IMG/VR virus record: IMGVR_UViG_3300022538_000422
Coordinates: 1-22,097 of that record
Length of the DNA stretch: 22,097 bases
Direction: 5' to 3' (one strand)
Source of the DNA: a virus
In this document: piece after piece, positions 4,213 to 19,302 of the stretch
Position numbering within the stretch: position 1 is the first letter of the stretch
Layout of the letters: each line of letters opens with the position of its first letter
Position numbers and translations under genes: made by a program
The notes under the pieces: model-generated
Told to the model about the DNA's origin: nothing
Database searches by the model: none
The model's input: only the letters and a program-made list of their open reading frames with translations

Positions 4213-5262
4213 CTAGGCGGTAACTGCCGAATCTTCTATATCAAAGATACGACCTAGGCTAAGTTTGCTCCCAAGGAGCAACGCACTATAATTAACCAGC
4301 CTAATACCGCCAGCATCATAGTCCTCAAGCTCGTCAAACATAACCAGCTTGTAGAACTGTCCTAGCATTTGGGTGTTACCGAAACCAAGCATTAACCCAG
4401 GTTCACCGTTAAAGACATCTCCGAACTTGATGCCAAACACGGAGTATTGCTTATCATCAGCGGTGTATTTAGCTCTGAGGTTAGAGCCATCACCAACATT
4501 CTGGTTTTCAGCTACCAGGAAGTCAGTCCTTACAATGGGAATACCATCAAAGAACATGACACGCTTACCAGCTTCATCCCAGCCAACGGTAATGGAACCC
4601 ATAAGGTTATACATGGTGGTGGCTCCAGAATAATCAGCTGCATAAGATAGACCACGCTCCTGGTATAGTTCATCCAACCTACGAGCAATTTCAAAGGGGA
4701 ATAGGAGAATATCACAACCATGTTTCATAGCATCTAGCATCTTCCTCAGGTTGTCAAGGGAGAGTCCAGCTTCAGCATTGTCTATATCCAAGCTGGTTCC
4801 AGTTTGCACCGCTGCTAGAGCATGGAGACCATCAAACTCCTTGGTGAGACCAGCACCATAGCTAATATCATCATAGATGATTTTATCACCTAGCTTCCTC
4901 ACAATACCCTTCTTCATCTCCCATAGCATCTGAGCCTCATAGTCATTGATGGTTCCATAGACATCAGGAAGGAAATTGTCAAGAACCCGCTGAACATAGC
5001 ACCTCTTTAGTGCCACTTCCTGCGGGTCATAGGTTACACTAGCTGACCAAGACAGCTGTTCACCAATCTCTATGTCCTTTACATCAGCCTCAATGCTGGA
5101 TACCTCTCTATTCCACTTAATGGTCTTACCCCTAGCTTGTGCTACAGGAAGCCTATCAAGCAGGTTATTTCGCTTGATGTCCTCCTCAATGACACCAGGG
5201 ATAAGTTGGGACTCGGTTAACCTTTGAGCTTCGGTAAGGCTATTCCAATGTCCTATCGCCAC
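4213..5262 (-). CDS. major capsid protein
   Basis: This 349-aa protein builds the head shell. It starts with GTG, with AAAGGAGG about 9 nt upstream. The N-terminus (SLTEAQRLTESQLIPGVIEE) and following part (NNLLDRLPVAQARGKTIKWN) match the extended arm and early strands of HK97-fold capsid proteins as I know them. Later come a helical spine-like region (YEAQMLWEMKKGIVRKLGD), a segment with LFPFEIARRLDELY, and C-terminal strands (SVFGIKFGDVFNGEPGLMLG). Length fits the family. It lies 15 nt downstream of the scaffold gene, the standard scaffold-capsid pair, and shares the scaffold promoter. The call is strong by order and sequence character, though the exact capsid family was not determined. Confidence 0.85.
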   Translation of the reverse strand: MAIGHWNSLTEAQRLTESQLIPGVIEEDIKRNNLLDRLPVAQARGKTIKWNREVSSIEADVKDIEIGEQLSWSASVTYDPQEVALKRCYVQRVLDNFLPDVYGTINDYEAQMLWEMKKGIVRKLGDKIIYDDISYGAGLTKEFDGLHALAAVQTGTSLDIDNAEAGLSLDNLRKMLDAMKHGCDILLFPFEIARRLDELYQERGLSYAADYSGATTMYNLMGSITVGWDEAGKRVMFFDGIPIVRTDFLVAENQNVGDGSNLRAKYTADDKQYSVFGIKFGDVFNGEPGLMLGFGNTQMLGQFYKLVMFDELEDYDAGGIRLVNYSALLLGSKLSLGRIFDIEDSAVTA

Positions 5263-5277
5263 AGTATCTTACCTCCT

Positions 5278-5871
5278 TTATTGATAATCAGGGTCAGATT
5301 TGGACTTTTTCTGGAGTTCCCTAGCAAGTGTTATTTCTGACTTACACCCTTCCAAAACAGTGGTAGGTGCACCTACTCCAACTCCAGATGGTCCAATGTC
5401 ATACTTAGCAGGTTTTCCTTTGTTCCCTACAAGCTGAAGAGCATCCTCTAAATTCCTGAGCTGGTTCATATCCTTGTCTTTCAGAGATTCCTCACTTACC
5501 TTATATTGGACAGCTAGGTGAGACCTCTTCATACCAAGCAACTCCTCTTCCAGTTGCTTCCTGCTTTCCTGAGCAGCATTTAACTGGGTCTCCAACTCAC
5601 CTACCTTGGGTTTCAAGGTAGCACCCTCTTTTGCTTGTTCCTCAAGCTGCTCTTTGGCAGCCTGCTCCTGAAGAAGTTGGTTATGAGTTTCATCCTTCAA
5701 CCTATTAGCTTCGGCTATCTGGGACAAAAGCTCTCCCTCTTTCTTCTCGGAACCCCCCTTTACCGCTAGAAGGTCAGACTCCTTAACATGCTTAATTACC
5801 TTGCCATCCACCATAATGTTAATGGTTCCATCCTCATTCACGGTATAGGTCTGAGTTTGTTCGTCTGGCAT
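5278..5871 (-). CDS. head scaffolding protein
   Basis: The 197-aa product begins MPDEQTQTYTVNEDGTINIM. It then has a long acidic/basic coiled coil from about residue 40 to 120 (AKEQLEEQAKEGATLKPK; RKQLEEELLGMKRSHLA). A Gly/Pro linker follows, and a basic C-terminal tail (ARELQKKSKSDPDYQ). This pattern, placed directly upstream of the capsid gene, is typical of phage scaffolds that guide capsid assembly and leave or are degraded. A dedicated promoter (5891-5920) lies just upstream and leaves a leader of only about a dozen nucleotides, which holds AGGAGG. Scaffold and capsid can therefore be expressed strongly on their own. Confidence 0.8.
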   Translation of the reverse strand: MPDEQTQTYTVNEDGTINIMVDGKVIKHVKESDLLAVKGGSEKKEGELLSQIAEANRLKDETHNQLLQEQAAKEQLEEQAKEGATLKPKVGELETQLNAAQESRKQLEEELLGMKRSHLAVQYKVSEESLKDKDMNQLRNLEDALQLVGNKGKPAKYDIGPSGVGVGAPTTVLEGCKSEITLARELQKKSKSDPDYQ

Positions 5872-5940: not shown

Positions 5941-5991
5941 AATATACTTTATTATACTATTATGATAATGTTAATTATGATATAGTATATT
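5941..5991. repeat. AT-rich inverted and direct repeats after the giant gene
   Basis: AATATACT (5941-5948) pairs with AGTATATT (5984-5991). Between them ATTATGATA occurs twice (5959-5967 and 5974-5982). The outer stem overlaps the end of the 1945-aa gene. It could act as a weak terminator for the packaging transcript, as a protein-binding region for the next promoter, or only reflect AT richness. Confidence 0.3.
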
Positions 5992-8900
5992 TCTTACCAA
6001 CATCCTTGCAAATCTGCTGGAAGATAATCCCAGCTTCAGGAGTTTGGAAACTCTCAACTCTACCCCAGAATCTCAACCAAGCATCCAGGGCAGGATTAGC
6101 ATACCTAAGTGCTAATCTGGCATTGGACACATCGGTGCGGAAACTGGATACTAGCTTGTTACCTGTCGTTACGCTGACCATAGCTTTGATTTCATCCTGC
6201 CGAACAAAGTCTATGTCCATGCGTTCAAGGTAAAGGAATTCCTTAATTAGCTTTTGCTCCTCCTCTGGGTATCTTTCTAAAGCAGACTCCCAAATTTTGT
6301 TATATACCCTGAAGTATTCCTTATACACCTTCCGCCTTACCAGCTCCATTCTAGTAGAATTCCTAGAGATATAGTCATCCCACTCCTGCTTTAGATGAGG
6401 TGGTATAGCACCTTCTATAGCTTCCCTTTGTGCCCAAAAGGTATCCCAGTCCTTTACTTTCTCACCAGTTTCCTCATCTATTTTATCCTTTAGCTCTATA
6501 TCAAAGTAGAGGTTGAGGAGTTCCCTCATAGGATGCAGGACTGGCATAGGTATATTAAACTCCTTATAGTAATCGGTTCTACCTTCCAAAGTCATTAGAG
6601 GATTTTCCTTCATCTTCTGGTCTATGTAGTTGGTTTGGTCATCATAGAGGTCAATAAGCCTATCATTATAGTCTCTAGCACCGATGATACCACCAAGGAA
6701 ATCCTGTTGTATTTGGAGTTTCTCTTGTTGTTGGTTTTCGGTGTATCTCCTAACATCATCCCAATCCAACTCTAATCTGTTTAGAATTTCCTGTTGCCTA
6801 CCTGGTAGCAAAGGTCTAACAGAACCCATCCACCTATAGGCATCTAGCTCTTGGAGAATAGCCTGCTGGGTTGGGGATATGCCACCTACCAAATCCCAAA
6901 TTTTGTAACCATGCATCCTAAGCCACTTCTGTTGGTCAAGAGTAAATCCTGTCATTTCCTCTATAGCTTTAGAAGAATCCTCATACACCTGGTATTGCTC
7001 ATCACTCCTAAGCCTGAACAAACCGAACTGCTCAAAAAGGGCACCATGAAATGCTGCTTCACTCCTAGCATCCGTCCAAACGGCTTGCTCCTCCTCAGTT
7101 AGCTCTAGGTGTTCCTCCATCTTGGTCCAAATGTGGGTTCCATCATAACCACGCTTATTGACCATAAGGATAGTTAGGTAATCTCTAAACCTATCCGAAA
7201 ATAACCGTTCACTAATTGCTTTCACAAACTCATTGTCAGGGAATAAACCTATAGCAGCGTTTAGGGGAGTCTTCCATATTGCTGGTATGGTCTCACCCAT
7301 TTGCTGCTCCAAGCCACCAAGTGCAGCTAGAGGAATACCGATATGAGCACCTGGATAAAAGCCATATCGGGAGAGGAAGTCCATAAACTCCACAAAGTTG
7401 CCAGCAAATGGTAGAGCATCATAATATTCAGGGAAATCCCTCCTAGTAAGTCTGGTTGTTAAGGTGCCATAAATAGTTCCTCTAAATGGGTTAATGTCTA
7501 TGGAAGTCCCTGGTATATGGACATAACCATAGTCGGTGTTATTCTGCCACCTTTCAAATGCGGTAAAGGTTCCAGGATGTCTAATGAAGCTACGAGGAAG
7601 CCAGAACCACCTCTGGGATTCGTAGGTCCAGTAGGGGTAGATTGATTTCATCATGGCATCAAAAGCATTGGCGTTGGTGTAGTCAGGATATTCCTTGTAA
7701 TACCATTTGTGGGCTTCATCCATAGCGGATTGGCGGAGGGAATCAAAACCCTCATATTCAGGTTTCAGGATTCTAGGTGGAACTTTAGTTGGGGGGATAG
7801 TTGGGAATGGTTTAGCACCTCTGGTAATGGTATGACCCAACAGCTTCTGCTCATGAGGAATCAACTCAATTAACCCTTTCTTCTCAAGACCACGCAACCA
7901 TGCCACTCCATCTGGTTCTAATATACCACTAAATAGAGGTTTCCCACCAGCCTCCGCATCAGCAAGAATCCTATCCAAGGCAGTGGTAGCTATGCCCTTA
8001 CGCCTTACTGTTTCGGTAACATCAATCTGACCCAATATGATTCCCTTTATCCCCATAATGTCGGTGCTGCCATAAGATACGGAGCCAACCTTCTTTCCTT
8101 CAACCATAAAATCAAAACCCTCACCAATGGTGGTTTTAATTGGCTTTAGACTGATAGGAACAACAGGAGCTTCATACATTAGTCTGTCCATAGCATCGGC
8201 AGTTTCATCCAGGAACTTATCTATAATAATCTTTTCCTCTGGAGGAAACATCTTAGAGTTATGTAGGTAATGTAAGTCTCTCCTAACAGCTTCTAGCTCC
8301 ATTTGCTTGGAGGTAATCCAGGACAAAGTTCTGGGGTCTGTTTGCAGGGAATAAACTATTTGGTCATAAACCGCTCCTACAGATTCTCTGGTAAAACCTG
8401 CATCACCAGGTCTGGTTTTTGCTAGGACATAGGTTATAAACATCTCCCTATCGTTTTGGATTGTAAGGACATCCAACAAAGACCTAGAGATGTCATCACC
8501 TCTACATCCAAGGAGATTAGCAACATCCTGAGGAGCTAAAGGTCTATCCATCACTTTAATAGCTGGTCTTTGGAAAGGTCTAATACCAGCAGATATATCC
8601 ATACCTTCAGCTACCTGAACCAACATACCATCAAGGTCTGCTATTCTCCTATCAAAAATCATATACTCATTATCCATGTGGAGGTAAAAGTCATCCCAGA
8701 AAGTCCTACTTTTCATATCGGCTATGGTAGCTCCAGCAAATATCTCATGGCGGGTAGCCATGTTTTGTGCTCGGAACTCAGCAGCGTATTCCCGCTTGGT
8801 TGTTAGGATATCAAACAACCTATCAGCTTTGGTAACATAATCATCGGATATAGCCACTCCTGGTTGTTTCACTAAGGCTTTCAATTTGACAATAACCCTG

Positions 8901-11812
8901 TCTATATCAGCACCAGCACTATCCAGGAACAGGTATAGCCTATCAAAGTCAATATCAAACCTTGCTCTCCTTTCAGCTAGAGATAAACCTCTACTCCTAA
9001 CGGTAGCTTGAGCAATAACCTGTCTGGGAGTGGCTCCATAGACATTTGACATAACCTGTAGCTGTTTGAGACACCATGCCATATCCTGTGGATTTCTCAC
9101 CTCTAATTCAACTAGGATGTCAGCTAAGGATTTCATTTGTCGGGTAGCTATTTCAGGACCTCGGATAAAGTCATCCAGAATCATAGCTCCACTTTCAGTT
9201 ATAGTCCTGTCTATGGAAACACCACCCTCACTAAATAGAGTACCAGCCCTAAACTCACTCCCAACGAAATCCCTCACAGTATTAGGTAATTCAGGATGTT
9301 GTTTAAGAATGGTGTTAACCTCGTTCCCAACTATCCTCTCTCTGGTAAATTGGTTTTTGGAGTTCCTAAGTAGCTCTGGTTTACCTGTGCTTTTAGCATG
9401 GTGGACTAGGGTTTCTAAATCCCTAACTATGGTTTTATCAGCTAATGTTGGTGTCTTAGGTCCAACCCTCATCAAAGCCTCATAGGTATCACCACCTGTT
9501 TCTCTAAGTATTTGGAGGAATCGTTTAGCAAGAAAGTTCCTACGGACATCCATACCATAAGCACCAGGGATTCTAACCGCATAGGTATAGAGCTTGTCTG
9601 CCCAACCTTTCTTACCTAATGTAGCCAGTTGAAGAATCCAGTTATTCCAATTCTCCTCGGCTCCCTCCCTAGCTAGATAACCAATCATCTCTGATATACC
9701 AGCCCTCCTAATTTCAGGGTCAAAGGTTAGACCTACAGCTAGTGTCTCAAAGTTTTCAATGGTCATCCTTCTGGGACGGACACCACCAAGGGAAGTGCGT
9801 ATATAATCCTCCAGGACATTCATCGGACCATACATACCAAAGGTTAGGTAGGCTTCAGCAAAGGGTCTCACCACCATCCTATCAATTTGGTTCCTCCAAA
9901 TACCCTGAAGCCTAACATCTACATTGTGGAGCAGGGTAGTATAGCCACCAACCTCTTTGCGGACAAGGTAAGCTGCACTCTCCTCTATCCGCATGTGGAC
10001 TTTGAGGTTCCTGCTCATCAAAGCTCGCATAGCTGCAAAAGGACTTTTAGCTCCAGCAAACACCATAGCTCCTCGGGATATAACATCTGCTCTATCCTGT
10101 AACAACCTCTGAGCTAGTTTTAAGGTATCATCATCAGGATTTGCTGCACCAAGGATACGCAGAAGCCTACCACCAGCTTCCTTCTGTGTGATAATACCTT
10201 TCATAAAATAATCCTCAAAGAGGTTCTCAACATTCTCTATGGTTACTCTGGTTATATCCTCAGGACTAAGAGTGGTGCCTAACCTCTTAGACCAATTTCT
10301 GATGAGGGCTTCATCTACAGGAGCATGTTTGAGTAATTCCCTCCCAGCTAAAGCCATCCATTCCTCCGATTGTGGATGGTCAAGAGCAAATTTTATAAAT
10401 ACCTCGGTAGCTTCTCCAAATTCCTTCATGTTGATACTGTGGAGAGGTTTACCTGTATATCTGGTTAAAGCATGGTCAACAAGCCTACCTGCTTGTCTTT
10501 GAGCCATTAAAGCTCGCTGACCCGCAGTTTTTGGTATTCTCTTTATACCTGCCTTTATCAAGTCAAATGGAACCTCAAAAACCGCTTGTATTCCTCTCTC
10601 CGCTGCTCCAACAAACCTACCAACATAAGGAATTGGTTTGGTAATCCTAGCAGCTATACCCCAACCTACATAGGTCAATGGGTCAACAGCACCTTCCATC
10701 AACATATATTTAACAAACCAATTGAACTCCCAGTTATACCAAGCATTACCTAGAGCTTCCCAAGTGGATTCTGTTTTCCTCAACCTTTGATACTCAACTT
10801 CTATGTCGGGAATAAAGGTCTTCCATACAAAACCTGCGATTGGTTGGGAAACATGCTCAAAGTATAGACCAGCCAATTCCATAGCTGCCAAGCCAGGTTG
10901 CACAACCATTTCCTTAGCCATATCCCAAAAGGTATAATCTGGCATTTCAGCCAATCCACCTCTAAATGCCTCCAAGCGGTTAGCATCCTCCGTCCATTGT
11001 GCAATGAGGTCATCAGCAAGGAGTTGGGTATAGGCTACCTCTCCCAAATCAGCATCACTATAACCCTCCATCTTTAGGAGTTCATACCACTCCTCATCAG
11101 TCATAACCTTAGGAGGAACTCTAGGAGCAGTAATAGCTTTAAGGATTTCCTCTGTGGTTATTATGGATATGCCAATAGGTTTAGGAGCAATGCCTACAGG
11201 AGCAATTAGCTCGGGTAATCCTAACTCAACAGCCTCCTCTGGTGTTACTCCTTCTGGTGCTGAGATTGCTTTAATCATACCAGCTATGGTATCCCTAATT
11301 GAACTAAGCTCGGTTGGTGTAATGGTTTTTGGAATAGATAAAGCTGATAAAACCTCATCAACCGAAGTTAACCGACCACTAGATATGACGGTAGGAACAT
11401 CACCATATAGTTTATAATAAAACTCCTGCTTTTCAAGGTCATCCATAGCAATGGTCATTTTGTTTTTTAGCCTGTTTAACTCCTCTCCTACAACTCCTGT
11501 AAAGGCTATTTGAGCAGCTTTAACCCTTGTCTCTGGCGGGAGTGATGGTATCATGAGTAGTTTTTGGATGAAAATTCCTCCCCCACCTACCGAAGCATAC
11601 GCCTCATAATGTTCACCATATTCCTCCATGAGCTTACTGGTTTCACCCATCAAAGTCCAATAGCCCATCTTCTGGCTTTCCCATTCAACCAACTTTGTCC
11701 TAAGCTCAGGACTCGCCTTTGCTATGCGTTGGGAAAAGGAAAGGAACCAGCTGGTAATTTCCTTCATCCTGGGTGAAAGTTCTTTTAATTCATCTGGATA
11801 ACCGTCAGGCAT
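5975..11812 (-). CDS. giant virion-associated (polyvalent-like) protein with an internal GNAT acetyltransferase-like domain
   Basis: This 1945-aa protein starts with ATG after AGGTGAATT and follows the portal gene by 9 nt. Visible parts in order: a helical N-terminus; a Pro/Ile-rich linker near 155-240; a hydrophobic helical region near 365-410 (DPLTYVGWGIAARITKPI); a long helical middle; a GNAT-like domain at about 1219-1317 with the acetyl-CoA loop motif RRKGIATTAL near 1268, preceded by a GQIDVTETV strand; an aromatic segment (YPYWTYESQRWFWLPRS) near 1388; a hydrophobic stretch near 1465-1530; and a charged helical C-terminus. Between portal and scaffold one expects a minor head or internal protein. 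Phage polyvalent proteins are long multi-domain products delivered with DNA, and an embedded acetyltransferase fits that idea. Packaging into the virion and the acetylated target are inference. No lysozyme, MuF or ADP-ribosyltransferase motif was recognised. Confidence 0.7.
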   Translation of the reverse strand: MPDGYPDELKELSPRMKEITSWFLSFSQRIAKASPELRTKLVEWESQKMGYWTLMGETSKLMEEYGEHYEAYASVGGGGIFIQKLLMIPSLPPETRVKAAQIAFTGVVGEELNRLKNKMTIAMDDLEKQEFYYKLYGDVPTVISSGRLTSVDEVLSALSIPKTITPTELSSIRDTIAGMIKAISAPEGVTPEEAVELGLPELIAPVGIAPKPIGISIITTEEILKAITAPRVPPKVMTDEEWYELLKMEGYSDADLGEVAYTQLLADDLIAQWTEDANRLEAFRGGLAEMPDYTFWDMAKEMVVQPGLAAMELAGLYFEHVSQPIAGFVWKTFIPDIEVEYQRLRKTESTWEALGNAWYNWEFNWFVKYMLMEGAVDPLTYVGWGIAARITKPIPYVGRFVGAAERGIQAVFEVPFDLIKAGIKRIPKTAGQRALMAQRQAGRLVDHALTRYTGKPLHSINMKEFGEATEVFIKFALDHPQSEEWMALAGRELLKHAPVDEALIRNWSKRLGTTLSPEDITRVTIENVENLFEDYFMKGIITQKEAGGRLLRILGAANPDDDTLKLAQRLLQDRADVISRGAMVFAGAKSPFAAMRALMSRNLKVHMRIEESAAYLVRKEVGGYTTLLHNVDVRLQGIWRNQIDRMVVRPFAEAYLTFGMYGPMNVLEDYIRTSLGGVRPRRMTIENFETLAVGLTFDPEIRRAGISEMIGYLAREGAEENWNNWILQLATLGKKGWADKLYTYAVRIPGAYGMDVRRNFLAKRFLQILRETGGDTYEALMRVGPKTPTLADKTIVRDLETLVHHAKSTGKPELLRNSKNQFTRERIVGNEVNTILKQHPELPNTVRDFVGSEFRAGTLFSEGGVSIDRTITESGAMILDDFIRGPEIATRQMKSLADILVELEVRNPQDMAWCLKQLQVMSNVYGATPRQVIAQATVRSRGLSLAERRARFDIDFDRLYLFLDSAGADIDRVIVKLKALVKQPGVAISDDYVTKADRLFDILTTKREYAAEFRAQNMATRHEIFAGATIADMKSRTFWDDFYLHMDNEYMIFDRRIADLDGMLVQVAEGMDISAGIRPFQRPAIKVMDRPLAPQDVANLLGCRGDDISRSLLDVLTIQNDREMFITYVLAKTRPGDAGFTRESVGAVYDQIVYSLQTDPRTLSWITSKQMELEAVRRDLHYLHNSKMFPPEEKIIIDKFLDETADAMDRLMYEAPVVPISLKPIKTTIGEGFDFMVEGKKVGSVSYGSTDIMGIKGIILGQIDVTETVRRKGIATTALDRILADAEAGGKPLFSGILEPDGVAWLRGLEKKGLIELIPHEQKLLGHTITRGAKPFPTIPPTKVPPRILKPEYEGFDSLRQSAMDEAHKWYYKEYPDYTNANAFDAMMKSIYPYWTYESQRWFWLPRSFIRHPGTFTAFERWQNNTDYGYVHIPGTSIDINPFRGTIYGTLTTRLTRRDFPEYYDALPFAGNFVEFMDFLSRYGFYPGAHIGIPLAALGGLEQQMGETIPAIWKTPLNAAIGLFPDNEFVKAISERLFSDRFRDYLTILMVNKRGYDGTHIWTKMEEHLELTEEEQAVWTDARSEAAFHGALFEQFGLFRLRSDEQYQVYEDSSKAIEEMTGFTLDQQKWLRMHGYKIWDLVGGISPTQQAILQELDAYRWMGSVRPLLPGRQQEILNRLELDWDDVRRYTENQQQEKLQIQQDFLGGIIGARDYNDRLIDLYDDQTNYIDQKMKENPLMTLEGRTDYYKEFNIPMPVLHPMRELLNLYFDIELKDKIDEETGEKVKDWDTFWAQREAIEGAIPPHLKQEWDDYISRNSTRMELVRRKVYKEYFRVYNKIWESALERYPEEEQKLIKEFLYLERMDIDFVRQDEIKAMVSVTTGNKLVSSFRTDVSNARLALRYANPALDAWLRFWGRVESFQTPEAGIIFQQICKDVGKKYTIS

Positions 11813-11821
11813 AATTCACCT

Positions 11822-13486
11822 CTATATCATTTCTCCCATAGGTGGTGGAGGAGTTACTTCCTCTCTAGGCATTGCCTCTCTTGGAGTTGCTATCTCCCTA
11901 GCTCCTGGAGGAGCAGCTTCAGGAGCAGCTGGTGTTAATTGGGCTTCCAAAGCTCCTGCTGCCTTTTCATACAAAGCTGCGGTATCAGGGTCTCCAGCAT
12001 CCCTGAGTAGTCTAGCTTCCTCTTTATAAGCTGAAATTAGGGATATGGTAATAGCTATTGGATGGTTGAGAGCATCATCCCTCCTAGCTCTAGCTTGTTC
12101 TCTGAGGGAGTCCTTAATCTCAGGGAAGAGTTTGTCCATTGTGGTACTGGTAGAAAGTCTAAATTGAGGATTTACCATCCTAGCTACAGTTACCCTTTGA
12201 ATCAGGTAACCAGGTATATCTATGTTAAAGGTAACATCAAACTCCAAGTCGCTTGGCATATCCTCAGGCATCTTAAACCCATGAGGTTTATACCCATGCT
12301 TCCTCATCTGACCTAGCCAGAAGTTATCAATATCCGATAGTAGACCTTTGACAGCTTCATGGTAGGGAGTTAGCACCTGCATGGCAGCGGAAGCTACCTG
12401 GGACATAGCATAACCAGTTATTTGCTGCTGGATGTTACCATATAAACTCCAAGGGAACAAACCACGCTGCATCATATTTTGGTAGTCAAAAAGAATTGAC
12501 CGTAGTTCTATTGGTATTGGAGGAGTTGGTAATGGAGTAATATTCTCTTCTGGAGTCCCTCTAAAGATAGCTCCTCGCTTAAACAAGTCAGCTTGTGTTA
12601 GGATTGGGGTATCACCTCTGGATTGCTCAAACCATCTGGGATTAGCGGTATCACGGACAAGCTGTTGACCATAGGTTAACATCTTATTGAAGTTGGCTAT
12701 GATACCTTCATCGGTAGCAATAATGGATTCTCCATAATGCTCCTGCCACTTTGAGCCTGTGGTTAAACTACCTTTGTCAGGAAGTCCTCCAACTGGGGAG
12801 GTGAAGATTGGAATAAACTCCAAATCAGGTTCTTTGGTTGCTTCCTTGACAAACTCTCTACCCATAACAATAGCATTGGCTACCTCTCCATCAGCATCAA
12901 ACCCCCAATGGTCATAAAGAGTAGTTGGGGAAACGAAGGGACTTCTAAGTTTCCAACCCATCGTCCTAGCCTTCATGTTGGCTGCTGCTGCCGATAAGGG
13001 ATAGATATGGGCACATTCGGTTTGACCATCAGCACCAAACTCAGAGAACACCTCTGCTGGATGCCAAACCTCAGCTATCAGGTTATCATCATCAACTAGG
13101 GCAAGGACAGAATACCATCCAGTTGCTAACATGAGGGAAATAAGGTCTCTCATCCAAGATTGCCGACCTCGCTTCCTATAGCTCTTTTCTATTTGAGTCC
13201 ACCTCTTGGTTACATAACTTTCAAGGTAGGAAGCACCAGTTACCTGGATTGGTTCTAGCTCTTCGGATGATATTCTATGAGCTATGATGCTGGAGGTTAA
13301 TAGGTGCAGAGCTAGGTTATAACCTGCTCTTGGGTCATTGGAAACTACAGACTCCATACCTTCCTGCTCAAGCTCGTCTTTGAGGGTAAGGACATCATAC
13401 CAAGCCTTGAATTTAAGGTGTCTGGTTCCCCAATTCCTTCTTAACCTGTTGCATTTGGTTATTATGTTATCAACTGTTATTGCCAT
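11822..13486 (-). CDS. portal protein
   Basis: This 554-aa protein would form the ring at the head vertex through which DNA is pumped. AAAGGAGGAATTAA precedes the ATG, and the gene follows terL by 12 nt, the usual terminase-portal order. The N-terminal helical part (LKFKAWYDVLTLKDELEQ) leads into a region with MRDLISLMLATGWYSVLALV and EVWHPAEVFSEFG, typical of portal wing and stem strands. A later segment (YGNIQQQITGYAMSQVASAA) and the following helix resemble the portal tunnel and crown region. The C-terminal 40 residues are Pro/Ala/Glu-rich (APEAAPPGAREIATPRE) and probably flexible. Length and position fit, but the exact portal family was not determined. Confidence 0.85.
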   Translation of the reverse strand: MAITVDNIITKCNRLRRNWGTRHLKFKAWYDVLTLKDELEQEGMESVVSNDPRAGYNLALHLLTSSIIAHRISSEELEPIQVTGASYLESYVTKRWTQIEKSYRKRGRQSWMRDLISLMLATGWYSVLALVDDDNLIAEVWHPAEVFSEFGADGQTECAHIYPLSAAAANMKARTMGWKLRSPFVSPTTLYDHWGFDADGEVANAIVMGREFVKEATKEPDLEFIPIFTSPVGGLPDKGSLTTGSKWQEHYGESIIATDEGIIANFNKMLTYGQQLVRDTANPRWFEQSRGDTPILTQADLFKRGAIFRGTPEENITPLPTPPIPIELRSILFDYQNMMQRGLFPWSLYGNIQQQITGYAMSQVASAAMQVLTPYHEAVKGLLSDIDNFWLGQMRKHGYKPHGFKMPEDMPSDLEFDVTFNIDIPGYLIQRVTVARMVNPQFRLSTSTTMDKLFPEIKDSLREQARARRDDALNHPIAITISLISAYKEEARLLRDAGDPDTAALYEKAAGALEAQLTPAAPEAAPPGAREIATPREAMPREEVTPPPPMGEMI

Positions 13487-13498
13487 TTAATTCCTCCT

Positions 13499-15070
13499 TT
13501 ACCATTTCCATCCACTCTTACCAAGACAACCTCTTATGGTTGGATTAGGATTATTGCAGACAATCCCTATAGCTACGGAATCATGGATGTCATCTGCTCC
13601 TACGGATAGAGCTTTATCACCCACTTGGCGAATGTTCCTAAGCTCCGTGATGAACTCTATGTCGTGGACAACCATATCAGGTAAAGCTCTATGGAGGCTG
13701 GCTAACATATAGTCTTTGGTTCTTGGACCAGTTAACCATCCAGGTTCACTACTAATCCTACCACTAACTACATCCCTCCTATAATAGATATTACCATATT
13801 TGATAATCGGTGCTATACCTAATCCATGAGAATTAGCTTCCCAGGTTATCATAGCACCATTGTAATACCTAGCAGCCTCCCTAGCTTTAGCAACTGTTGG
13901 TTCTAGGGAATATAAGCCTGCATCCCTAGCACAATACTTCCAGTGGTCATTTCCTGGCTGGGGTGGCATCAACACGGTAATTGCTGTTTGGGTTACTTTG
14001 GCTTGTCCTGGGTCCACAGTTACAATATAGCTTTTACCTTCTTCTGGAGGATACCACACAGACAAACCATTTTGGTGTATGGGTGCTAGGTAGCACCCTC
14101 TAGCTTTCTCATTCACAACTACAGGGTCATAGAACATATCTCCAGTAGCTAGGAAGCAGGAGACATTATCCTCAGGGAATTCCTGAGCAAATAGCATCCT
14201 AGTTTCACCAGTCCTCCTAAGAGACTCTTTCTCCTTGATTTTCCATCTACGCCATCTTATTTGGTCATAGCTTAATCCTTTATTGACTACCAGCTGCTCC
14301 TCATCCTGAGATAAGGTGAACTCTGGCTTATCGGTCTCTGGTATATGTCTGATGCGTGGGTCTCCCAATGGTATTGTATAATCTAAACACATCCACCAAG
14401 GATAAAAATGTGGTGTGAAAACACTATTACCCTCCACAGCCAACCTATACATTTCACAGAAGTCATTGTCCTCACCATTGGGAGTGGAGAATACATCCAC
14501 GGTTCCGTCTGGAGGAACTCTGTCCATGGCTGGAGCAAATATTCTCTCCATAGACCCTACTGCCCAAAAAGCAAATTCATCACAAAGGAGATGGTGGATG
14601 GTTTCTGCTCTACCAGCTACATAACTCCTAGCTGATGCAATATAGATGGAACTTTTGCTGATAACTCTACCATTAACATAGAATCTAAAGGTTTTCTCAT
14701 AGGTGGAATCATGATGGATAGTAGGAAAGCCTGGTATCCCTAAGGAAGCTAGATGGTTATAAAAGAACTCCACCTTGCTCAGTAGGCGTTCGGTGATAAA
14801 GTCCTCATAAGCTATAAGGACGGTATTGGTTCCTGGAACTGTTAGGGTATCAACCAAGCGTTCACCTAACTTTATAGAACTATGACCTGCTTGAGCAGGT
14901 TTTACATCAATGTCCCTACCAGTTTCGGTAGCTATTACATCCTGCTGTATGGGATTAAGGATAAATGGAACCCTTTGGCGTTGTTTATTTTCAATCACCA
15001 ATAAGGTTTCAATAAACCTCTTTTTGTCAGCAAAAAGTTCCCTAAAGGTTTGTTCAAGTTCGGTTATCAT
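13499..15070 (-). CDS. terL: terminase large subunit (packaging ATPase and nuclease)
   Basis: This 523-aa protein powers DNA packaging and cuts the concatemer. ATPase part: a deviant Walker A, KPAQAGHSS (57-65), with no lysine in the usual GK position but a lysine at its first residue, as in phage lambda gpA (KSARVGYS). Walker B is LLCDE (161-165) and the coupling motif FSTPNG (194-199). A linker with QEFPEDNVSCFLATGDMFYD follows. Nuclease part: Asp352 in IVTVDPG, Glu410 in TWEANSHG and the Asp cluster 493-497 in GADDIHDS, the expected acidic triad of the RNase H-like fold. The start overlaps the 74-aa gene as ATGA. The gene precedes the portal gene. Confidence 0.9.
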   Translation of the reverse strand: MITELEQTFRELFADKKRFIETLLVIENKQRQRVPFILNPIQQDVIATETGRDIDVKPAQAGHSSIKLGERLVDTLTVPGTNTVLIAYEDFITERLLSKVEFFYNHLASLGIPGFPTIHHDSTYEKTFRFYVNGRVISKSSIYIASARSYVAGRAETIHHLLCDEFAFWAVGSMERIFAPAMDRVPPDGTVDVFSTPNGEDNDFCEMYRLAVEGNSVFTPHFYPWWMCLDYTIPLGDPRIRHIPETDKPEFTLSQDEEQLVVNKGLSYDQIRWRRWKIKEKESLRRTGETRMLFAQEFPEDNVSCFLATGDMFYDPVVVNEKARGCYLAPIHQNGLSVWYPPEEGKSYIVTVDPGQAKVTQTAITVLMPPQPGNDHWKYCARDAGLYSLEPTVAKAREAARYYNGAMITWEANSHGLGIAPIIKYGNIYYRRDVVSGRISSEPGWLTGPRTKDYMLASLHRALPDMVVHDIEFITELRNIRQVGDKALSVGADDIHDSVAIGIVCNNPNPTIRGCLGKSGWKW

Positions 15071-15291
15071 TGCTCCTCACCCACTGGAAAGCTGGTCTTT
15101 TTGAAATCCAAATAGACATTCTCTGGGAACATCAAAGCTATATGTTTCATTAAAGCTGGAGGTAAATCCACATTACAGATAATAAAGACTGTGGGGAAGA
15201 TGGAATCTGGGTGTTGGATTTCATACCTAGCACCAAGATTCTTAAACATTTTGTCCAGTTCATCTCTAACTATTTCTATACTCCAGCCCAT
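15067..15291 (-). CDS. small protein of unknown function coupled to terL
   Basis: The 74-aa product begins MGWSIEIVRDELDKMFKNLG. A helix is followed by strands (PTVFIICNVDL) and a helix (LMKHIALMFPENVYLDFK), an alpha/beta arrangement without metal-binding or membrane motifs. GGAGGTAACC precedes the ATG. The stop overlaps the terL start as ATGA, so terL translation is probably coupled to it. A packaging accessory role is possible from position alone, and I do not recognise the family. Confidence 0.55.
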   Translation of the reverse strand: MGWSIEIVRDELDKMFKNLGARYEIQHPDSIFPTVFIICNVDLPPALMKHIALMFPENVYLDFKKTSFPVGEEQ

Positions 15292-15300
15292 GGTTACCTC

Positions 15301-16755
15301 CTAAAAAATTGTTACTGTTGGGATAAAAGTTGGTGGTGCTACCGCCTCATATTCAATGTGGAGCTGAGGGCACTTAGTAGTAGAGCCATCATAGGAATAT
15401 GCCCTTCGTCTTCTTTCAGCATCGTGAGCACTTCTGTCTTCATAGTCCTCCCAGAAGATAACTATATCTTGACCACTTGCCCACCCATCTCGGTCTACTA
15501 TTTCCTGAATAACCGAGACGATTGATGGACTATTATATTCAGTATTAAGAACCCACGAAGCTATATTATCCCAATCAACTCTAGCCGTTGTTCTGGCAGC
15601 CCAGCGGGTATCAAACGCTCCATAGTTATCAGTAAACACAGCAGCATCATCTACATCTTCAGCACTTATTCTACTATTTGTTCCAGTAACAGTACTAGCA
15701 GTTGAGCAGGTTAATATAAGATAGCCTACATTTATAGTTCCTTCTATAGCAACAGTCTGAAACCTCATCCCTGAACCATATTGATAGAAACTTGTACTAT
15801 AAACACCAGCAACACAATAACTTAGTGTTAAACTCCAACCAGATGTTGTCAAACGCCTATAGCAATCATCATCACTTGCTCCAACTATCTCATCAACATC
15901 GGTGTCAATAAATACAGGATAAATAGCACCTTGCAACCACTCGTAAGGAACTCTTATCTCAATGTAAAGGTTCTTTCCTGCCTTTCTCAAGGTGGCTATG
16001 GATTGCTCTAAATTATGTTCAGGACTGCTATCCCAATACTCCAAAGGCATAAAACCCCATAGAACCTCACTATCCTTCCTGAACTCAATTATCTTAAAGG
16101 TCTGCTTCTTTACCTTCTTATCCCAGAGTTCACCATCAACATAAATATCCACATCCTTTGACGGGTCAAATATCAGATTGAGCCTCAATACAGGATTACC
16201 ACCATCAAGGATATACTGCTCAGGGACAGGTAGTTTGTTAAGGTTCTCTATCTCTAGGATTTTAACCAGCCTAGTTGAAGTGCATCGCCACCTAAAGTCT
16301 ATGCCTTCACCATAAGCATCATTCCACCTGATAGTCCCTTGATGGCTTGGCATACCAACAGCAGGAAGCAAGGCAACTTCTGGATTGGTAATTACAGGAG
16401 TAACATCTTGAGGCATTGAGACCTGTTGTATCTGGTCAAGGTCATTAGTCCACTCCAAAGCCATAGGTTGAAACTGGACTGTCTCACCCTGTTTCTCAAA
16501 CTCTATAATTTGACCAGCAGTGAAGTCCTCTTTGACCCTGATATGGTAGCCAGCTTTGACCATCCCCCAGTCCCAAGGAGCAGCAATAGGTTCAAAGATG
16601 TTATCTATCTCTTTCCACTGTTCCTCTTCCCAATAGTGGATAGAGCCAATGGTAACATCAACGGCAAAGTGTCTAGGGTCAGCGGAATCCACCCGCTTCT
16701 TGCCATTCCTAGTTCTCTTATCAACCTGCTCTACCCAAGCTCCCTTAGCTGGCAT
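15301..16755 (-). CDS. beta-rich phage structural protein, possible fibre or surface-binding protein
   Basis: This 484-aa protein starts with ATG after GGAGAAATA. The N-terminal half (about 1-290) has many short strands (SIHYWEEEQWKEIDNIFEP; GYHIRVKEDF; TIRWNDAYGEGIDFRWRCTS). The C-terminal half, from about 300, looks like a jelly-roll or lectin-like domain, ending in SVIQEIVDRDGWASGQDIVI, then AERRRRAYSYDG and a final strand LHIEYEAV. I recall this C-terminal pattern in surface and viral proteins with carbohydrate-binding-like folds, so glycan or host-surface binding is inferred. It follows the tail-fibre-like gene by 9 nt, which supports a shared role. No enzyme motif was seen. Confidence 0.5.
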   Translation of the reverse strand: MPAKGAWVEQVDKRTRNGKKRVDSADPRHFAVDVTIGSIHYWEEEQWKEIDNIFEPIAAPWDWGMVKAGYHIRVKEDFTAGQIIEFEKQGETVQFQPMALEWTNDLDQIQQVSMPQDVTPVITNPEVALLPAVGMPSHQGTIRWNDAYGEGIDFRWRCTSTRLVKILEIENLNKLPVPEQYILDGGNPVLRLNLIFDPSKDVDIYVDGELWDKKVKKQTFKIIEFRKDSEVLWGFMPLEYWDSSPEHNLEQSIATLRKAGKNLYIEIRVPYEWLQGAIYPVFIDTDVDEIVGASDDDCYRRLTTSGWSLTLSYCVAGVYSTSFYQYGSGMRFQTVAIEGTINVGYLILTCSTASTVTGTNSRISAEDVDDAAVFTDNYGAFDTRWAARTTARVDWDNIASWVLNTEYNSPSIVSVIQEIVDRDGWASGQDIVIFWEDYEDRSAHDAERRRRAYSYDGSTTKCPQLHIEYEAVAPPTFIPTVTIF

Positions 16756-16764
16756 TATTTCTCC

Positions 16765-18030
16765 TTATGGTGTTTGAAATACCAGTATAACATCCAATCC
16801 CTTTGTTCCTGTCCCAGCTACATCCACATCTATTCTAATCCTATCACCAGTCGCCACATCATCATAGCTACCATTGATAACTGGAGGTGTGGCAGCGATG
16901 TAGGAATTTAGCTCATTCTCATCAATGGTCATTAGCGTGGAGAGCATATCTTGAGCACCACCCGCATAATCTAGGTTGTGCAACTGGACTGTAGGTGTTC
17001 CAGAACTAGATGCCGTATATACCGCTATATCAGCATCCACCAGGTTCATCCCATTCAAGTCGCTAGGTATAGTGATATAAGCCTTACCATCACCAGTTGC
17101 CACTGCGGTATCATTAGCAAGAACCTTGACATAGACTATCCTCTTCACAGCAGCATTTACATTGGTGGTGTCGGTAACATCCGCACCAGCTTCTATTGCA
17201 TCCAGTTTGCTGTGGTCGGCATCCAGAAATGCTTGTTCACCAGTATCAGGATATACAGTAGCTCCCGCCTCTATATTATCCAATTTGGTATGGTCAGCAT
17301 CAAGGAAAGCCTGCTCTCCTGTATCTGGATATACAGTAGCACCTGTTGCAATACCATCCAACTTACCCTTATCCGCTTTGCTTATAAGTCCATGGAGAGC
17401 ATCGGTAGCATCTAGGTCGGTGGTGTCATCAGGTGCGGTAAAATCATCCAACTTTACCGTCTTAGCTGCTGCAACTACCTCGGCATCCAAAACATGTTGG
17501 TCATCTGCTAGGAGACCACTCAGTCCTGCAACACTTATCTCATCAGTTCCAGCATTTTGATGGGATGCTTTATGAGCAGATGGTGTTCTACTATCACCAC
17601 TGCCATCCAAGGTAGCATCCGATACTTTAGCATTAAGGTTGGCTAGGGTATCCGCTGTATGAGCACCTAACAAATGGGCTTTAGGGGTGTGGTCTTGAAC
17701 CTCAGCTTTGGTAGAACCTTCCAGCTTCTCCGAATTATCTACAACACCATCCTCATCGGTATCATAGGTGGATTTGAGCATATCACCTGCACCAACTCCA
17801 GCTTCACTAAGCTCTATGACAGTTGGAGAACCTGCCTCCCAAGCAGCTTGGTGATAAGCTACATATACCTTGTTGGTAGCTTCATCCACATAGAGATTGA
17901 CTACCTTACATTTACCAGTTGTAGGAACGGATACAGGTATATCTTCTCCGACAACAGTTAGGAATCTGGTAATACCATCCTCAACTATGCGGATGTGGTC
18001 GCCAACTTTATCCACATTGGTTATGGTCAT
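16765..18030 (-). CDS. tail-fibre-like protein with 26-residue repeats
   Basis: The 421-aa product starts with ATG after AAGGTAATTT. A beta-rich N-terminus (DHIRIVEDGITRFLTVVGED) is followed by DMLKSTYDTDEDGVVDNSE (83-101), a calcium-loop-like segment often seen in phage fibres. A shaft with SHQNAGTDEISVAGLSGL comes next. Two near-identical 26-residue repeats lie at 224-249 and 250-275 (core GATVYPDTGEQAFLDADH). A beta-sandwich C-terminal domain follows (about 296-421; DDVATGDRIRIDVDVAG). Repeats with KLDGIxxGA are a common hallmark of phage tail fibres, which form trimers and bind host surfaces. The fibre call is good; the receptor cannot be told. Confidence 0.75.
   Translation of the reverse strand: MTITNVDKVGDHIRIVEDGITRFLTVVGEDIPVSVPTTGKCKVVNLYVDEATNKVYVAYHQAAWEAGSPTVIELSEAGVGAGDMLKSTYDTDEDGVVDNSEKLEGSTKAEVQDHTPKAHLLGAHTADTLANLNAKVSDATLDGSGDSRTPSAHKASHQNAGTDEISVAGLSGLLADDQHVLDAEVVAAAKTVKLDDFTAPDDTTDLDATDALHGLISKADKGKLDGIATGATVYPDTGEQAFLDADHTKLDNIEAGATVYPDTGEQAFLDADHSKLDAIEAGADVTDTTNVNAAVKRIVYVKVLANDTAVATGDGKAYITIPSDLNGMNLVDADIAVYTASSSGTPTVQLHNLDYAGGAQDMLSTLMTIDENELNSYIAATPPVINGSYDDVATGDRIRIDVDVAGTGTKGLDVILVFQTP
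17206..17361 (-). repeat. two tandem 78-bp coding repeats in the fibre gene
   Basis: The two units (17361-17284 and 17283-17206) encode nearly the same 26 residues (GATVYPDTGEQAFLDADH, then TKL or SKL). At DNA level they differ at many third codon positions, so the duplication is not recent or has diverged at silent sites. Unit number could change the shaft length. Confidence 0.8.
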
Positions 18031-18694: not shown

Positions 18695-18809
18695 TTACTC
18701 CCTCTCCTTCAGGTGGGTATAGCCACAATCACGACATTTCCATAATACGATTCCTCCTAACATCAATATGTGCTATGACCATCGGCTTATGGCAGTGTGG
18801 GCACTCCAT
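18695..18809 (-). pseudogene. zinc-ribbon ORF split by a 1-nt frameshift
   Basis: An ATG at 18809, with AAAGG 9 nt upstream and inside the terS end, opens a frame reading MECPHCHKPMVIAHIDVRRN and then stops at 18729 after 26 codons. Shifting by one base near 18740 continues as WKCRDCGYTHLKERE and ends at 18695. Joined, the two halves give a textbook zinc ribbon with two CxxC pairs (CPHC and CRDC). The total span is 115 nt, one more than a multiple of three. Either a single base was inserted and the gene is dead, the sequence has an error, or frameshifting makes the full protein. No obvious slippery run is present. Confidence 0.6.
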
Positions 18810-19302
18810 CAGTTTCCGCCTTTATAATTAGTTCTCTCTTTTCTTCCCTTAGAGTAAAAGTCAGTTTGGTAAAGTCAAAAGGTTCTCCAGATTCTACCTC
18901 ACCTACTAGCTGTTTGATAAGCATTAGCTGTTGAGGAGTATAATGACCCCTTAGCTTTAGGAGATACTGGTGTTCCTGAGCAGATAGTGCTACACCTGTA
19001 ATAGCTTTGATAAGGACATCAAAATCCTTTTGTAGAACCATGTGGTAGTTGCGGGTAAATTCAATGTTTATGTATTCGGAGCTAAGCTGCTTCCTTGCTT
19101 CAACTAAACCTACAGTATCCAGTTCATTAAACTCTGGGTCTAGCTCCCTCCAACGCTTGACACTCCTTATGGAGCATTTAGCCAGGTTCATAGCTTCCCT
19201 CACGGAAAAGCCAGCTACCCTAAAGCCAAGATACTTTGACCTCTTGGTATCATCCTGGCAGAAGGGTATCATTACCTGGCTAATATTCTCGGCATCATTC
19301 AT
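18787..19302 (-). CDS. terS: probable terminase small subunit
   Basis: This 171-aa protein has a helix-turn-helix at about 24-58 (YLGFRVAGFSVREAMNLAKC, then SIRSVKRWRELDPEF), a form typical of phage terminase small subunits that recognise the packaging site. The middle (about 65-130) is helical and could oligomerise (VEARKQLSSEYINIEFTRNY; LSAQEHQYLLKLRGHY). The C-terminal part is charged. It is the first gene after a strong promoter (19320-19348), with AAGGA about 7 nt before the ATG, and opens the block that leads to terL and portal. TerL lies about 3.7 kb downstream, which is unusual. A transcription regulator with the same fold is the alternative. Confidence 0.65.
   Translation of the reverse strand: MNDAENISQVMIPFCQDDTKRSKYLGFRVAGFSVREAMNLAKCSIRSVKRWRELDPEFNELDTVGLVEARKQLSSEYINIEFTRNYHMVLQKDFDVLIKAITGVALSAQEHQYLLKLRGHYTPQQLMLIKQLVGEVESGEPFDFTKLTFTLREEKRELIIKAETDGVPTLP

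Follow-up and report, generated by a model that had tools for sequence, protein, structure and literature searches.

A giant gene in IMG/VR virus record IMGVR_UViG_3300022538_000422, considered here over all 22,097 nucleotides of that 22-kb virus contig (the window), encodes a protein in which a GNAT acetyltransferase domain occupies a slot whose contents are exchanged among related viruses. That the slot is exchangeable, with the GNAT domain as just one of its occupants, goes beyond what the preliminary description of this DNA, a reading of the sequence alone, could see. On balance, the phage is likely to be podovirus-like and the giant protein one of its internal head (ejection) proteins, delivering interchangeable effectors, with the GNAT domain acetylating a host protein.

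The Giant Gene and Its GNAT Domain

The giant gene comprises a single frame from ATG to stop that takes up 26% of the window, in agreement with the uninterrupted 1945-residue frame, about a quarter of the stretch, previously described. A second IMG/VR record, L002 (L-numbers denote IMG/VR loci encoding relatives of the giant protein), encodes residues 1-1613 at 99.8-100% identity; this near-identical copy shows the frame to be real and rules out an assembly artefact. In L012 (positions 9671-16231), the giant gene is present as two open reading frames (ORFs; 619 and 1538 amino acids) split by a stop or frameshift, possibly a sequencing error.

Searches of IMG/VR revealed relatives at 20 loci when the single sequence served as query and at 80 loci with a profile of the C-terminal part, while a wider profile returned 126 candidates. 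No relatives were found in 50,697 INPHARED phages, PLSDB plasmids or GTDB species genomes (pattern scan), and the whole giant protein gave no match in Pfam, PHROG or PDB. Chance was taken to account for the weak single matches in the whole-protein scans (IBN_N, CARF-assoc_HTH, BBP1_C and the like). The giant-protein family is new, without any coverage in Pfam or PHROGs.

When excised, the GNAT segment of the window protein matched Pfam Acetyltransf_1 with an E-value of 0.032, below the curated cut-off. Domains found at the same position in L038 (E-value 2.1e-7) and L079 (3.6e-5) exceed the Pfam acetyltransferase cut-off, and the window domain shares 40% identity over 81 residues (E-value 9e-15) with its same-slot counterpart in L079, a distant relative. 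A profile of the three sequences matched the solved GNAT structures 1y9k, 3ld2 and 6ao7 (E-values 7e-5 to 4e-4), and the acetyl-CoA-binding loop of the window protein, RRKGIA, aligns with QRRGIA in L079 and RRQGLG in L038. In the AlphaFold (AF2) model of the C-terminal side, covering residues 1195-1945, the segment contains four strands and a helix after the loop, with predicted local distance difference test (pLDDT) values of only 45-71. A Foldseek search with this low-confidence model returned 6ao7 and 1y9k at the top (probability 1.00, ~3 Å), but with an E-value of 0.25. The GNAT assignment is solid by sequence and consistent with the structural model. The earlier proposal of a GNAT domain inside the giant protein was thus borne out by the link to L079 and the match to solved structures at 7e-5; of the checks suggested at that time, profile searching recovered the domain through its relatives, while structure prediction gave a weak result, with GNATs leading the Foldseek list at the E-value just cited. 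The RRKGIATTAL motif was likewise found, although beginning at residue 1270 instead of about 1268. Finally, no second catalytic domain had been recognized previously, and Pfam and PHROG scans again revealed only the GNAT domain in the window protein.

The GNAT Domain Lies in a Slot with Exchangeable Contents

Alignment of the giant protein with its relatives revealed that the N-terminal ~1200 residues and the C-terminal 600 residues are common to the family, whereas residues ~1208-1349, containing the GNAT domain, are not. Among the 79 distinct IMG/VR family members on which the slot counts rest, this main slot is empty in 34, where a linker of 9-52 residues is found, and filled in 45, where 83-440 residues are present. 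GNAT domains backed by models or sequence occupy the slot in the window, L038 and L079. The ADP-ribosyltransferase (ART) domain ART-PolyVal was detected in L003 (E-value 2.5e-4), L033 (6.9e-7) and L155 (4.6e-7), each match falling narrowly short of the curated cut-off. Profile comparison links a second ART group (L006, L033, L066 and L058) to ART-PolyVal (P 1.3e-7). L149 carries a nucleotidyltransferase (NTP_transf_2, E-value 1.9e-7). The HExxH inserts of L124 and L081 are assigned by that motif only; HExxH inserts in the family gave no convincing match to any peptidase model. Two further groups, YHGAP (L009, L010 and L051) and MYRGSL (L007 and L127), appear ART-like by eye, with no model matching either. 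An R-S-E-like ART was also considered in L005, L012, L031, L035, L122 and L151 on the basis of its motif alone; PDB profile and profile comparison gave no confirmation. The module beginning IKLYHGAP, which is 240-260 amino acids long and of no known family, spans residues 1239-1505 of the giant protein in L009, 1204-1464 in L010 and 1259-1527 in L051, and is 48-60% identical between distant scaffolds.

Inserts are also seen elsewhere in the giant protein of relatives, at sites that are empty in the window (Table 1). At the third slot, these include HExxH inserts (L031, L041 and L056), ParB_N (L035, E-value 7e-6) and GNAT-like sequences (L054, L066, L147 and L156). Separately, an intein of ~300 amino acids lies at an invariant site, between YPYW and TYESQR, in L005, L019, L020, L029, L031, L032, L040, L056, L071 and L089. 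In most of the ten, C or S is the first intein residue and GN the last residues, before T; the two inteins scanned matched Intein_splicing (E-values 1e-4 and 2e-3) and LAGLIDADG (E-value 0.005).

Comparison of individual members showed how slot contents change. In L004, the closest relative (C-terminal part 94% identical), the main slot contains no GNAT domain; the DNA flanking it on either side matches that of the window at 82-94% identity, and a short linker replaces the insert in frame. When slot state was mapped onto a maximum-likelihood tree built from 67 rows of C-terminal scaffold sequence, 31 changes were counted, as compared to 30.3 with shuffled labels, such that slot state is as scattered as expected by chance. 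Slot turnover therefore outpaces scaffold divergence. In several pairs, the modules are more alike than are the scaffolds that carry them (40 vs. 30% identity for the window and L079, 48 vs. 35% for L010 and L051, and 46 vs. 35% for L014 and L086), while the reverse is seen with L081 and L084, where the modules are 35% identical and the scaffold 88%. Modules are thus exchanged, as opposed to diverging slowly.

Evidence for and against Ejection

The AF2 model of residues 1-1200 is all-helical and essentially strandless (mean pLDDT 74). The N-terminal half gave no significant Foldseek match in PDB or BFVD, and the C-terminal scaffold no match in Pfam, PHROG or PDB. The ~1800 residues beyond the GNAT domain are thus predicted to form a conserved scaffold that is helical throughout and corresponds to no known fold.

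Six distant members of the family (L049, L058, L088, L091, L139 and L140) contain an SLT lytic transglycosylase domain within their first ~130 residues (E-values 2e-16 to 2e-4), and three members, all SLT-bearing, match phrog_342, annotated as 'internal virion protein with endolysin domain.' The L004 contig (L092/L093) was taken as a complete genome of ~42 kb because it bears an exact 141-bp terminal repeat. Apart from the giant gene, the largest ORF in this genome is of ~650 codons, and it therefore contains no tape-measure gene, which fits a short-tailed phage; nor were long-tail genes recognized with confidence. The virus is thus probably short-tailed (podovirus-like). Carriage of the giant protein in the capsid and its injection are what we infer from four independent lines of support, namely, the SLT and phrog_342 matches, the lack of a tape measure, the place of the gene and the classes of cargo. 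The L004 genome also carries genes for a family-A DNA polymerase, an exonuclease, a helicase-like ATPase and a DNA methyltransferase.

Several observations weigh against an ejected protein that delivers a GNAT enzyme. Profiles of both scaffold halves match no solved structure, ejection proteins included, and no SLT domain is present in the window protein or in its clade. Strong transmembrane helices are absent from the window protein, in which the best 19-residue hydropathy is 1.42, while T7 gp16 has two predicted. In T7 and P22, ejection-protein genes follow those of the tail instead of lying between portal and scaffold. Finally, the C-terminal half of the GNAT domain (residues 1292-1343) is unformed in the AF2 model.

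The position of the giant gene directly after the portal is that of muf genes, and MuF toxins carry ART and metallopeptidase domains, with their delivery alongside DNA being presumed (PMC5576092). As such, one alternative considered was a MuF polymorphic toxin encoded by a temperate phage, in which case the giant protein would be a minor head protein of the MuF type, associated with the portal and loaded with toxin cargo. However, no MuF domain (PF04233/PF06152) was found in the window or in the 32 members scanned, the cargo is internal rather than a C-terminal extension, and no small immunity ORF is present, the next gene mostly lying ~90-120 bp on, with or without cargo. This origin is considered unlikely.

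The indirect nature of the evidence for ejection and the place of the giant gene within a late operon would also suit a GNAT domain that acts in the producing cell or in assembly, with late acetylation of a phage or host protein and only incidental fusion to a head protein. Such a role is improbable, given that 45 of the 79 members have, within one and the same structural protein, cargo of kinds that are unrelated to each other yet expected of early-acting injected effectors (PMC5512222). A late enzyme, moreover, would have no need of fusion.

Tape measures are likewise long and helical and enter the cell envelope, and some of them bear SLT domains. The length of the giant protein, its all-helical model and the SLT domain of some members would accordingly suit a tail tape-measure-like protein, as would weak BFVD matches that include tape measures and the match of one member to the phrog_4372 tape measure (E-value 8e-4). 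Those BFVD matches are, however, not significant (E-values above 0.03), the gene lies between the portal-position and capsid genes, ahead of that for the major capsid protein (MCP), wherever neighbors are covered, and the complete relative offers no confidently recognized long-tail genes, making this assignment quite unlikely. It is very unlikely that the slot holds inactive filler, an expanded loop of decayed domains tolerated by the scaffold: although the canonical acetyl-CoA loop is missing from several inserts (L030, L054 and L066) and the slot is empty in many members, the R/Q-x-x-G-x-G/A loop is kept in the window, L079 and L038, other inserts keep their HExxH, G-S...D-x-D or ART motifs, and slot sizes fall into the two groups given above rather than a continuum.

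Genomic Setting of the Giant Gene

The giant gene is found two genes downstream of that encoding the terminase large subunit (TerL) and directly before the scaffold-like and MCP genes, and the order TerL-portal-giant-scaffold-MCP is retained across relatives, wherever neighbors are covered. TerL, the MCP and this synteny place it among the virion genes of a terminase-portal phage; synteny also places it directly downstream of the portal-position gene, itself assigned by position. The preliminary description had put the giant gene between portal and scaffold. That order was upheld, being kept in relatives, while the identities assigned to the two flanking genes were not, with neither gene giving a match in the databases searched.

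Table 1. Positions in the window of the giant gene, its parts and neighboring genes.
Feature	Position	Strand	Residues	Remarks
Giant protein gene	5975..11812	-	1945 + stop	ATG start; proposed ejected internal head protein
N-terminal scaffold	8192..11812	-	1-1207	predicted all alpha-helical; kept throughout the family; N-terminal ~112 residues vary (site of the SLT domain in six distant relatives)
Second slot site	9200..9220	-	~865-871	empty in window; L007 has an HExxH insert, L020 and L035 inserts of other kinds
Third slot site	8843..8857	-	~986-990	empty in window; occupied in relatives
Main cargo slot	7766..8191	-	~1208-1349	includes Pro/Lys-rich linker at C-terminal end
GNAT acetyltransferase domain	7853..8155	-	~1220-1320	sequence profiles; weak structure
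Acetyl-CoA-binding loop RRKGIA	7988..8005	-	1270-1275	R/Q-x-x-G-x-G/A motif
C-terminal scaffold	5978..7765	-	1350-1945	most conserved region; near relatives 55-94% identical
Intein insertion site	7625..7630	-	W1395/T1396	empty in window; occupied in 10 relatives
Major capsid protein (MCP)	4213..5262	-		phrog_212 E-value 1.8e-15, plus tblastn
Scaffold-like coiled-coil gene	5278..5871	-		begins ~100 bp past giant gene; from position, size and synteny
Portal-position gene	11822..13486	-	554	from position, size and synteny
Terminase large subunit (TerL)	13499..15070	-		tblastn against annotated large terminases, E-value 1e-18
Probable terminase small subunit	18787..19302	-		phrog_4044 E-value 0.0032

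Between the genes for the terminase subunits are two late genes (16765-18030 and 15301-16755, both on the minus strand), whose homologs are found elsewhere in some relatives (e.g., L038:19857, L074:16397 and L050:16583), as if fibre-like genes move.

Proposed Mode of Action

A few model phages are known to inject effectors from the head, Alt of T4 being an example, and effectors of this kind are predicted for polyvalent proteins. In the pathway proposed for the window phage, the giant protein would be packed in the phage head, and its ~1800-residue all-helical scaffold would exit the particle together with the DNA, as does T7 gp16. The effector enzymes would sit in fixed inter-helix loops of this scaffold, with proline-rich linkers on their flanks. 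Once in the cytoplasm, the GNAT domain in the slot would use host acetyl-CoA to acetylate a protein early in infection, with a host protein being a likelier target than a phage protein. In related phages, the same slot would deliver ADP-ribosyltransferases, nucleotidyltransferases, metallopeptidases or nothing, its content being swapped through in-frame recombination. More broadly, the chances seem even that these proteins constitute an undescribed giant ejection-protein family serving as a standard chassis, with no more than three fixed payload slots and an intein site, and with modules recombining between chassis that are only ~30-35% identical.

Near-identical chassis with and without an enzyme, as in the window and L004, together with the same enzyme in distant chassis, offer a natural comparison. 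With such pairs, it becomes possible to test which enzymes are needed when a phage enters the cell. They also point to a naturally occurring scaffold for protein delivery, able to accommodate unrelated inserts of 80-440 residues.

Comparison with Known Systems

T7 gp16 is a largely helical protein of 1318 residues with an N-terminal transglycosylase that is ejected into the cell (PMC8954989). Like gp16 and other podovirus ejection proteins, the giant protein is long and mostly helical, with an N-terminal lytic transglycosylase present in the six relatives listed above, and, as in podoviruses, the genome of its complete relative contains no tape measure. Unlike gp16, to which no sequence or fold similarity was detectable, it is encoded between portal and scaffold, carries enzyme cargo in internal slots and, in the window, has no SLT domain.

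The giant protein is near to polyvalent proteins and to MuF toxins, yet strictly belongs to neither family. Iyer et al. (2017) predicted that the ART, GNAT, nucleotidyltransferase, ParB-like and zincin domains of polyvalent proteins are injected effectors (PMC5512222). Like phage polyvalent proteins, the giant protein is very long and encoded beside the virion genes of terminase-portal phages, and the cargo of its family comprises the same classes, i.e., ART-PolyVal, GNAT, Pol-beta nucleotidyltransferase, ParB-like and zincin (PMC5512222). By contrast, polyvalent proteins in the strict sense combine at least two disparate activities, whereas the window protein has one recognized enzymatic domain; the comparison with polyvalent proteins drawn in the preliminary description thus holds for its setting among terminase-portal virion genes but not for several activities in one chain. 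Two activities are apparent in some relatives (e.g., L007, L035 and L147), in part by motif. Further differences are that the giant family has one conserved scaffold with fixed slots, and that some of its inserts show an R-S-E-like motif, seen as a motif only and not confirmed, whereas the Alt-type R-S-E motif is absent from genuine polyvalent proteins (PMC5512222).

Like MuF polymorphic toxins (Jamet et al., 2017; PMC5576092), the giant protein is encoded right after the portal position, and ART and metallopeptidase domains are exchangeable in its family; unlike with those toxins, no MuF domain was found in the window or the members scanned, the cargo is internal and no immunity gene was found. 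In its proposed mode of action, the giant protein would resemble T4 Alt, a head-packaged, injected enzyme that modifies host proteins. Whereas Alt is a stand-alone ADP-ribosyltransferase, the enzyme of the giant protein is a GNAT domain embedded in a structural protein.

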